From: Anaerolineaceae bacterium
GTDB taxonomy: Bacteria; Chloroflexota; Anaerolineae; Anaerolineales; Anaerolineaceae
NCBI GenBank assembly: GCA_016841525.1
Contig: JAENYZ010000004.1
Coordinates: forward strand, 186,001 to 250,000
Reading direction: 5' to 3'
Length of the DNA stretch: 64,000 nt
In this document: piece after piece, positions 25,020 through 26,921 of the stretch
How the letters are laid out: each line of letters opens with the position of its first letter
Position numbering within the stretch: position 1 is the first letter of the stretch
Notes under the pieces: model-generated
Database searches by the model: none
What the model saw: the letters and a program-made list of their open reading frames with translations, nothing else
What the model was told of the DNA's origin: nothing
Program-made: the position numbers and the translations under genes

Positions 25020-25406
25020 ATGAACATTGAGACCATCCAAAGGTATTATAAAGCCCGGGGCCTTCAGTGGCCGGAAGCAAAGGATGCTTTATGGTTTTAT
25101 CTCTCAGAAGTCGGGGAGCTGGCGGAAGCCTATCTTTCTCATCACCAGGACGGACTTACAGCAGAAGAAGTTCAAATGCTTGAGGGATTTGCAAAGCACG
25201 GCATGCATGCCGATGAGATTGTTTCGCGCGTCGATGGCTGGATTCGCAACAATGACCGCGTTCGAAAAGAGGATATCAGCAAAGAAGTCGCCGACTGTGA
25301 AATGATGTTAGCCGTCTTTATGCACAGCCTGACGGGCAAATCACCGGATGATGCACTCCTTGAGAAAATGAAAGAAAAAGTAGGAGACAAATCTGGTCTA
25401 CTTTAA
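25020..25406 (+). CDS. MazG-like nucleotide pyrophosphohydrolase
   Basis: A 128-aa all-alpha protein. The metal-binding pattern of the MazG/all-alpha NTP pyrophosphatase superfamily is visible as SEVGELAEAYL (about 29-39) and ISKEVADCEMML. These enzymes hydrolyse non-standard or excess nucleoside triphosphates. It is a single-domain form, about half the length of E. coli MazG. AAAGGAG precedes the ATG. A TATAAT at 24979-24984 is a plausible -10. Confidence 0.75.
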   Translation: MNIETIQRYYKARGLQWPEAKDALWFYLSEVGELAEAYLSHHQDGLTAEEVQMLEGFAKHGMHADEIVSRVDGWIRNNDRVRKEDISKEVADCEMMLAVFMHSLTGKSPDDALLEKMKEKVGDKSGLL

Positions 25407-25634
25407 TCACGTTTGCTTCTGAAAATGAAATCATCATCAATTTAGAAATTTGGATGGGGACAGAGCACCACCCTTACAGAAAAAAATCAACTTGATAAGT
25501 GGGACAATTTATACATATTACAAAAAAATTAAGGGGTTATCCTTCCTATCCTCCGAAAAAGGTAGAAGTAACCCTGCTGTGAATAGATCCTATTTTACCA
25601 ATGGCACGACTGCACAAATTTAATTTAAAATTAT
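25407..25634. other. Intergenic spacer after the MazG-like gene
   Basis: About 230 nt, AT-rich, before a strong promoter at 25635. I see no ORF of coding character, RNA gene or repeat. Confidence 0.4.
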
Positions 25635-25663
25635 TTGACAAGCTAAGAAAAATCTATTAGACT
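25635..25663 (+). promoter_or_regulatory. Strong promoter of the small transcript
   Basis: Consensus TTGACA at 25635-25640 and TAGACT at 25658-25663 are separated by exactly 17 nt. It lies 41 nt before a 22-codon ORF, and transcription would end at the hairpin at 25798-25817. Confidence 0.7.
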
Positions 25664-25703
25664 ATTACTCGTTGATTAATTAACCTGAAAGGAGGTCGCT
25701 CGT

Positions 25704-25772
25704 ATGTTAGATAACTTAAAAATATCTTGCAAAAGACAATTGTTCGCGCCTCCTGCTGGTCGCTATAATTAA
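25704..25772 (+). CDS. 22-codon small ORF with a near-perfect ribosome site
   Basis: A 22-aa ORF starting MLDNLKISCKRQL and ending APPAGRYN. A full AAAGGAGGT lies 7 nt before its ATG. The promoter upstream and the terminator downstream make a self-contained transcript of about 160 nt. The GGAGG of the ribosome site can pair with a CCTCC near the end of the ORF (within codons 15-17), so folding could hide the start. It could be a leader peptide, a small protein or a dual-function RNA. I do not recognise the sequence. Confidence 0.5.
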   Translation: MLDNLKISCKRQLFAPPAGRYN

Positions 25773-25797
25773 GCATTAATAAATAATGTCTTGATCA

Positions 25798-25827
25798 CCA
25801 CAGGTGCGCACCTGTGGTTTTTCTTTT
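25798..25827 (+). terminator. Rho-independent terminator of the small transcript
   Basis: A perfect 20-nt palindrome with half-site CCACAGGTGC at 25798-25817, followed by a T-rich tail (TTTTCTTTT). It lies about 85 nt before the RIO kinase gene, so the kinase needs its own promoter or read-through. Confidence 0.85.
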
Positions 25828-25913
25828 CCCAAAAATAAAAATCACAATTTAAGCTTGCTGGCATGTGTCAGCCAATAATAACAAACTTGAAAATATTTAA
25901 GGATGATTAAACA

Positions 25914-26921
25914 ATGTCGAAGTACGACAATTTTGAACTTTTAGACCAAATGGAAGACCTGGATGGTTTACCCCCTATTCGGAATATCCCGAATAAACAA
26001 TTACAATACCGCCATCCTAAAAACAAAGTCAATAGAGAAATAGAATCTTTTGACACATCATTATTAGAAGAACGAGAAAATGAATTCAACTTTAGCTACG
26101 GCGCATCCAAACACGAGAAAGCCTGGATCAATGACTCTCTGAAAGATTTCTACCAGCAAAACTGGTTTGAAGATATCCTTCGTCTGATCAAAGGCGGCGG
26201 CAAAGAGGCATCCGTATATCAATGCCTTGGAAACACGACCACCCAGCATAAATACATCGCTGCTAAGGTTTATCGCCCGCGAAAATTCCGTCAACTGCGG
26301 AATGATTCACTCTATCGTGAAGGCCGCCTGATTCTCGACGATGAAGGTCATGAAATCAGGGATGATCGCGCTTTACATGCAATCCAACAGCGAACCAATT
26401 TTGGCAAACGCCTGCTGCACACCTCCTGGATTGAGCACGAATACCAAACGATGTCCCTGCTGTTCAAAGCCGGCGCTGACGTCCCGGAGCCCCTTGCCAG
26501 CGGAAACAATGCAATTCTGATGGCATATATCGGCACGGATGACATCCCTGCACCAACCCTCAACACCGTTGAGCTGGATCAAAATGGAGCGCAGCGTTTA
26601 TTCGAAAAAGCCATTCAGAATGTTGAAATCATGCTGAGCAACCACCGTATACATGGAGATCTTTCCGCCTATAACATTCTCTATCATGAGGGTGAAATCT
26701 ACTTGATAGATTTTCCCCAGGCAATTGACCCGCGTGTAAACAGGGCTGCTTTTCCTATTTTCAAAAGAGATCTAACCCGTTTGTGTGAATATTTCCAATC
26801 ACAGGGCGTGAGCTGCGATCCCGCCCAGCTTGCTGAACAACTCTGGGAAAAGCACGGTTACATTCCGAATGCCTCTGCTAATGCAAGCCTGGTTGAAACT
26901 GAGTTTGAAGATGGGCTGTAA
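25914..26921 (+). CDS. RIO1-type protein kinase
   Basis: A 335-aa atypical Ser/Thr kinase or ATPase. The RIO P-loop is LIKGGGKEASVYQCLG (about 89-104), an invariant Lys lies in YIAAKVYRPRKFR, the catalytic loop is HGDLSAYNILY, and the metal-binding loop is LIDFPQAIDPR. These are the RIO1 forms. RIO kinases act in ribosome maturation in archaea and eukaryotes; the role of bacterial members is not settled. The N-terminal 75 residues are polar and probably flexible. AAGGATG precedes the ATG, and a strong hairpin follows the stop. Confidence 0.92.
   Translation: MSKYDNFELLDQMEDLDGLPPIRNIPNKQLQYRHPKNKVNREIESFDTSLLEERENEFNFSYGASKHEKAWINDSLKDFYQQNWFEDILRLIKGGGKEASVYQCLGNTTTQHKYIAAKVYRPRKFRQLRNDSLYREGRLILDDEGHEIRDDRALHAIQQRTNFGKRLLHTSWIEHEYQTMSLLFKAGADVPEPLASGNNAILMAYIGTDDIPAPTLNTVELDQNGAQRLFEKAIQNVEIMLSNHRIHGDLSAYNILYHEGEIYLIDFPQAIDPRVNRAAFPIFKRDLTRLCEYFQSQGVSCDPAQLAEQLWEKHGYIPNASANASLVETEFEDGL

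Follow-up and report, generated by a model that had tools for sequence, protein, structure and literature searches.

A leader ahead of RIO kinase genes in Anaerolineae as a probable ribosome-read transcription attenuator without control codons

The leader that precedes a RIO-family kinase gene in the window (the whole 64,000-nucleotide stretch of Anaerolineaceae DNA that was analysed) is probably a cis-acting, ribosome-dependent transcription attenuator that has no control codons and would sense ribosomes that have stalled at or close to the start codon of its own short reading frame. It belongs to a widespread family of ribosome-read attenuators that appear to be codon-independent, and its 22-codon ORF most likely serves as the part of an RNA switch that ribosomes read, rather than encoding a new protein. 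Sequence comparison supports the anatomy of the element, its competing pairings, the frame kept open without amino-acid constraint and the association with particular gene classes, while the direction of the switch, its timing and kinetics, and its signal are what we infer.

All parts of the element lie on the forward strand. A sigma-70-type promoter, the leader's own, spans 25635-25663 and matches 10 of 12 consensus bases (TTGACA at 25635-25640 and TAGACT at 25658-25663, with a spacer of 17 nt). Segment 1, at 25690-25699, contains AGGAGGT (25690-25696), the Shine-Dalgarno of the leader ORF, and would also serve as the 5' arm of an anti-antiterminator. The leader ORF, which is the proposed translated sensor, occupies 25704-25772 (ATG at 25704, TAA at 25770-25772) and encodes the 22-codon peptide MLDNLKISCKRQLFAPPAGRYN. 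Segment 2, CGCGCCTCC at 25745-25753, is a potential partner of either segment 1 or segment 3. Segments 3 and 4 make up an intrinsic terminator hairpin at 25797-25818 (9 pairs, a loop of 4, then a T-run), which recurs in relatives; segment 3, AGGTGCG at 25802-25808 in the 5' arm and loop, is the complement of CGCGCCT at 25745-25751, and their pairing would be the antiterminator. The promoter, AGGAGGT, ORF and palindromic terminator had each been reported in a first-pass annotation and were all found in the sequence as claimed. The complete leader was matched at 25687-25825 by two covariance models, R1 (E 7.7e-26) and R2 (E 1.3e-20), whose training rows both include the window's sequence, so that these own-row matches arise by construction. 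The gene that we propose is controlled follows at 25914-26921 and encodes a 335-aa protein that belongs to the RIO domain family (Pfam PF01163, E 9.5e-36); it matched NCBIfam NF041645 at E 7.6e-36, yet under that model's cut-off, and its solved relatives are RIO1 structures (best E 8.8e-20).

The same annotation had proposed that the ribosome site is occluded. We found that GGAGGTCGC (25691-25699) is complementary to GCGCCTCC (25746-25753) with one U bulged, and that this pairing between the Shine-Dalgarno and the end of the ORF is present, as AGGAGG.CGC with GCGCCTCCT, within the minimum-free-energy fold of the RNA 25671-25830 (-41.9 kcal/mol, z -3.44; 0 of 200 shuffles equally stable). Because the fold pairs the Shine-Dalgarno with these 3' codons, the ribosome site of the leader is, in the folding model, occluded by the leader's own ORF. 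Within 25400-26000, promoter-like matches taken alone were near chance (4 vs 2.4 expected), and terminator-like matches were above it (3 vs 0.4 expected, the hairpin at 25797-25818 being one of the three). The arrangement of parts is, by comparison of sequences, not due to chance, since the parts other than a GGTCGCT repeat recur in relatives. That repeat does occur at both ends of the ORF, as had been pointed out, but is unconserved: its second copy is altered in two relatives (G006 and G011) and absent from three others (G013, G003 and G002).

The element was found well beyond the window. A DNA search of 61 genomes, the window's own included, gave matches in six, all within the window's genus; an intact RIO gene is present in 6 of 16 genomes of the genus, and the leader is present in 6 of those 6. 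A seventh member of the genus, G012 (L022/L023), has just RIO fragments, which include an internal TGA, and the RIO gene may on that account be dispensable in some members. Six further RIO loci (L010-L015), including those of Levilinea saccharolytica and Ornatilinea apprima, have the same order of parts, namely promoter, Shine-Dalgarno, an ORF of about 20 codons with a GCGCCTCC-like segment, stop codon, terminator and RIO gene. Conservation of the ORF and of the fold, the loss of which in relatives would have spoken against the first-pass annotation, was thus checked and found.

R1 was built from 12 elements and R2 from 34, including those 12. R1 matched 55 of 147 genomes of the family at E <= 0.1. 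At E <= 0.001, R2 matched 171 of 400 genomes and 68 of 130 genera of the order, 50 of 396 genomes of the class, and 16 of 301 genomes of a phylum sample (15 inside the class and 1 outside); the family, order, class and phylum sets overlap, and these tallies are not additive. The one matching genome outside the class, G1032 (E 4.6e-4), has a covarying site, AAAGGACGCAC with GTGCGTCC, and because of this covariation we take its element as real. In Rfam (release 15), a tRNA was the only match to the window at gathering score, the best sub-threshold match at E up to 5 reached 22.7 bits against a cut-off of 128, and 14 element loci gave 0 matches. The leader adds an attenuator family across the class Anaerolineae, with one case outside it, that has no covering Rfam model.

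The window's own genome has three elements, located ahead of the RIO gene, ahead of RsgA and a gene with an RNHCP domain, and ahead of a GNAT-MFS pair. The RsgA-side element (L025/L211) was matched at E 7e-5 by R1 and 6e-12 by R2, which contains it, and the GNAT-MFS-side element (L208/L212) was matched weakly by R2 (E 8.3e-4). Three other matches in this genome (L027, L028 and L029; E 1.5, 2.6 and 9.0) were dropped as chance, of which L027 was later recognised as the second terminator of the likely element L208; reverse-strand matches on the terminator palindrome (L026 and one more row) were likewise dropped. As a separate observation, in both L010 and the GNAT leader L208 the first terminator is followed by a second terminator-like hairpin with a T-run, as if termination were doubled.

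To describe the genes behind the leader, we assembled 172 elements, consisting of 31 R1 loci, 41 new R2 loci (L059-L099) and 100 of 101 matches hand-picked among those listed; the one left out is in G317 contig C85, and some weak matches were also left out. The downstream ORF was sought solely on the element's strand, and clusters were identified by Pfam and NCBIfam on representatives. The next ORF encodes a RIO kinase in 99 elements, an ABC protein in 32, RsgA in 14, an MFS protein in 8, a SnoaL-like protein in 4, a GNAT acetyltransferase in 3 and aminopeptidase P in 2. These seven recurring families take 162 of the 172 elements; one has no downstream ORF, and the remaining nine are followed by singletons, among them a further GNAT and a D/K/N-type class II tRNA synthetase. 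The RIO cluster of 99 (99 phmmer matches) includes L070 and a truncated L148, and stricter clustering keeps 97. The same stricter clustering divides the ABC set into 27 L210-like ATPases (ABC-2-type) and 5 MsbA-like proteins. Two ABC2_membrane_6 permeases come after L210, whose ATPase is closest to DrrA, under that model's cut-off. All matches of the tested ABC and MFS proteins to exporter models fall under the curated cut-offs, and their assignment as exporters is putative. No ABC-F protein was recognised among the annotated downstream representatives. Two gene arrangements were seen in passing. At L070, the ORF at 1735-2925 has a RIO-kinase-like start followed by an M20 peptidase and has no RIO domain, which may be an assembly chimera or a deletion fusion. 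In two genera, the gene behind a leader-associated RsgA is of the RNHCP type (L211 by Pfam, L214 by apparent protein similarity).

The converse comparison started from the RIO genes. Among 147 genomes of the family, 30 RIO genes were found (E <= 1e-40), and the leader lies ahead of 30 of 30. For 25 of them the gene sits 29-247 nt behind a listed element, and at the longest gaps, in G103 and G104, the element was confirmed on re-reading (E 6e-7 and 3.2e-8, 1.7-kb search). Reading the upstream DNA of the other five revealed the element in all of them, in an 11-kb search that gave E 1.1e-7 to 9.8e-5 for four and, most weakly, 0.0017 for L219. These results strongly support one of three options in the first-pass annotation, that of a leader for the RIO kinase gene. 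A second option, a regulatory RNA, appears correct in the cis sense. We consider it very improbable that the unit is instead a small RNA of some 150 nt that acts in trans, with the downstream gene expressed from elsewhere. A discrete terminated transcript is indeed predicted, and its CCUCCU could contact other Shine-Dalgarno sequences, but the concentration of next same-strand ORFs in the seven families, their closeness (median 73.5 nt across all parsed elements) and the retention of a reading frame argue against this. A trans role in addition to the cis switch is conceivable. Calling the transcript self-contained, as had been done, is misleading, in that the unit accompanies a downstream gene.

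We then examined the leader ORF in 90 non-redundant elements, which are the basis of the ORF, frame and swap statistics. The parse requires an ORF of 12-35 codons, and 171 of 172 elements parse, with a 3' hairpin also in 171 of 172; L192 is without a parsable Shine-Dalgarno. Because an ORF is demanded, an open frame 0 in 90 of 90 elements is uninformative, and the fair count is that from the first ATG with no length rule: the ORF has 16-35 codons in 89 of 90, mostly 19-22, and the remaining element is without a parsable site. Over 12 codons, the other two frames stay open in 22 and 51 of the 90 elements. TTGAC occurs inside the 60 nt preceding the element in 61 of 90 (4.9 expected from shuffling). 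The base opposite the Shine-Dalgarno A lies in codons 14-16 in 122 of 161 elements, and the stop codon follows 5-6 codons past this base in 111 of 161. Among non-redundant elements, the base occupies one codon position in 65 of 83 and the other two in 9 and 9, a count that covers 83 of the 90, as 7 are without a located partner.

The peptide itself drifts. Among single changes in the codons ahead of segment 2, counted in 27 independent close pairs, 14 are synonymous (16.1 expected without selection) and 44 are nonsynonymous; between the window and G006 there are one nonsynonymous and zero synonymous changes in these codons. A new small protein had been the third option of the first-pass annotation, and it is unsupported: the ORF does stay open, yet the codons ahead of the pairing segment give no indication of purifying selection. 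An independent small-protein gene that merely happens to lie beside RIO would account for a good promoter, Shine-Dalgarno, ORF and terminator, but the substitution counts, the occurrence of the element before several unrelated gene families and the alternative pairings that favour true partners (below) leave this reading hardly credible. The leader ORF is rather a clean case of a frame held open while its amino acids drift.

Some residue trends would agree with an attenuator that answers to control codons or to one particular stalling peptide, such as Pro-Pro near the end of the ORF: Pro-Pro is found in 45 of 90 leader peptides and Ala-Pro-Pro in 29, and position 4, which has the strongest trend among positions 2-13, is Ile or Val in 38 of 90. 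The Pro codons are, however, the pairing bases GCGCCTCC themselves, and Pro-Pro is absent from half of the elements (for example L035, L037, L054 and L069). Positions 2-13 carry just 0.37-0.89 bits with no strong residue preference, and no run of amino-acid control codons of the trp or his type was found. Tests of residue conservation and of codon changes likewise found no conserved stall motif in the leader peptides. Moreover, a stall at segment 2 would mask that segment and favour termination. We regard tuning to a peptide or to control codons as improbable.

Segment 2 is complementary both to the Shine-Dalgarno (1:2) and to the 5' arm and loop of the terminator (2:3, CGCGCCT/AGGTGCG). Over the 90 elements, the duplex energy of true 1:2 partners is -17.96 vs -15.68 (sd 0.25) for swaps binned by GC content, and that of 2:3 is -19.49 vs -17.09 (sd 0.27); 0 of 2000 swaps reach the true value in either case, whereas in five control segment pairs it is reached by 305-2000 of 2000 binned swaps. 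Composition matters in such tests, because without GC bins the control pair of Shine-Dalgarno and spacer was reached by just 22 of 2000 swaps. The longest ungapped helix gave the same picture (z 5.7 for 1:2 and 3.9 for 2:3, reached by 0 of 5000 swaps in either case; z from -2.5 to 1.3 for the controls). In L099, for example, 1:2 is GTACTTACGC/GCGTAAGTAC and 2:3 is GTACACCTG/CAGGTGTAC, and 2:3 is ACACACCT/AGGTGTGT in L047 and ATGCGCCT/AGGCGCAT in L046. A column-locked count of 2:3 pairs in 78 elements showed a weak excess (of 2000 shuffles, 33, 827, 134 and 27 did as well at the four positions counted), a weakness that we think is due to helices sliding in register. In the 12-row alignment, 94.6% of cells are paired, with two-sided changes in 2 of 14 pairs, both in the terminator. 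Judged by these comparisons, the element combines mutually exclusive pairings, one of which would destroy the terminator, with the other marks of a ribosome-mediated attenuator, a short leader ORF with a ribosome site and an intrinsic terminator before the gene.

We propose the following mechanism, in which segment 1 is the Shine-Dalgarno of the ORF of about 20 codons, segment 2 lies around codons 13-16, and segments 3 and 4 are the arms of the terminator ahead of the real gene. With no ribosome, 1:2 and 3:4 would pair and transcription would terminate. Under smooth translation, a ribosome at the stop codon would mask segment 2, 3:4 would form and the gene would again be off. A ribosome held at the start or first codons would cover segment 1 and leave segment 2 free to pair with segment 3 before segment 4 has been made; the terminator would then fail and the downstream gene would be transcribed. 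The decision would be taken while the polymerase sits between the two terminator arms. The usual position of the stop, 5-6 codons past segment 2, would be explained, because a terminating ribosome then masks segment 2.

Ensemble folding was performed with a ribosome footprint placed nowhere, at the start codon or at the stop codon. Before the 3' arm of the terminator exists, the predicted number of 2:3 pairs has a median of 9.3 when no ribosome is placed; the median is 11.9 for a start-codon ribosome and drops to 0.31 for a stop-codon ribosome. Masking at the stop codon is incomplete in some elements: at least 4 of the 2:3 pairs still form in 21 of 90, and in the window's element the masking is only partial (11.6 expected pairs without the ribosome and 5.4 with it). 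In the full-length RNA, the median probability of the terminator is 0.96 with no ribosome, 0.89 with a start-codon ribosome and 0.97 with a stop-codon ribosome. Because the terminator is favoured at equilibrium in all three states, the proposed switch would have to be kinetic. In addition, the off state without a ribosome would depend on 1:2 forming first, because the model forms 2:3 in 77 of 90 elements when no ribosome is present and the 3' arm has yet to appear.

The switch probably turns the downstream genes on when protein synthesis is disturbed. Given that neither codons nor a peptide motif are conserved and that exporters, RsgA and RIO kinases are among the targets, we read the signal as a general arrest at initiation or early elongation, as might be caused by translation inhibitors, cold or immature subunits. 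Alternatively, the same switch could respond not to antibiotics but to the rate of initiation or the supply of ribosomes (free 30S, cold shock, subunit maturation), with 30S binding to segment 1 alone setting the balance. That segment 1 is the Shine-Dalgarno itself, that the peptide is unconstrained and that RIO kinases and the 30S-maturation GTPase RsgA stand behind the leader all agree with a supply signal, but 40 of 172 elements precede putative exporter-type transporters (27 ABC-2-type, 5 MsbA-like and 8 MFS) and a few precede GNAT acetyltransferases, which together fit drugs better; we consider the supply signal a real but unlikely alternative. Anaerolineae might share a translation-stress regulon in which copies of one codon-independent sensor, with the leader's Shine-Dalgarno as its sensing site, stand before RIO kinases, RsgA, exporters and acetyltransferases. 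We offer this tentatively, as a proposal that falls a little short of an even chance. The aminopeptidase P, SnoaL-like and tRNA synthetase targets have no obvious fit to drug or ribosome stress. If the regulon is real, bacterial RIO kinases would help cells to survive when ribosomes are inhibited or misassembled. The present data group them with RsgA and exporters in what looks like a single regulatory set, and raise the testable question of whether they are induced by, and protective against, ribosome trouble.

Several known leaders resemble this one in part. Attenuators of the trp type share its four-segment logic of 1:2, 2:3 and 3:4 pairings with a leader peptide and terminate when untranslated; here, in contrast, segment 1 is the ribosome-binding site of the leader rather than a run of control codons, and segment 2 is inside the ORF. 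The uORF leaders of whiB7 in actinobacteria, which we set beside the Anaerolineae leader by description only, also show uORF-dependent attenuation and respond to many translation inhibitors, but control a single transcription factor. The closest mechanism appears to be that of vmlR in Bacillus subtilis, a likeness drawn from its published description. There, an anti-antiterminator, antiterminator and terminator are present, the uORF lies in the anti-antiterminator stem, and a ribosome arrested at initiation on it releases the antiterminator (PMC9226507). Its codons are described there as variable, MDN and MDK being equal to MIN and MRK less effective (PMC9226507). The two leaders share this three-part logic, a uORF within the anti-antiterminator and variable codons, and probably also release by a ribosome arrested in initiation and control of a translation-stress gene. 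The vmlR uORF has 3 codons, however, and its Shine-Dalgarno is single-stranded and ahead of the stem (PMC9226507), whereas the Anaerolineae ORF has about 20 and supplies both sides of the stem, one from its own Shine-Dalgarno and the other from its 3' codons; compared with vmlR as so described, the Anaerolineae element is also in another phylum, serves other genes and has copies ahead of many targets. The rli80/hflXr attenuator of Listeria has a 14-codon ORF overlapping the anti-antiterminator, a terminator and an RLR stall motif, and is induced by stalled ribosomes to express a ribosome-splitting factor (PMC6310831). The overlap of leader ORF and anti-antiterminator and the terminator are common to both leaders, induction by stalled ribosomes would be a further likeness, and the RLR motif is a difference, the Anaerolineae leader being without a conserved residue motif. 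Among the matches listed in a search of the open-licence literature, we found no description of this element, nor of any leader-ORF attenuator in this phylum.

Some minor features of the window were also recorded. A plasmid blastn search returned a single 25-base match, which was dismissed. Upstream of the leader, 25020-25406 encodes a 128-aa protein without a Pfam or NCBIfam match, which we presume to resemble MazG, and a similar frame lies upstream in G011, G013, G003 and G002. Between the terminator and the RIO start, a small hairpin, CTGGCA-TGTG-TCAG, is located at 25850-25878; in G006 its two sides differ (CTGGTATGTGCCAG) in a way that resembles a compensatory change.
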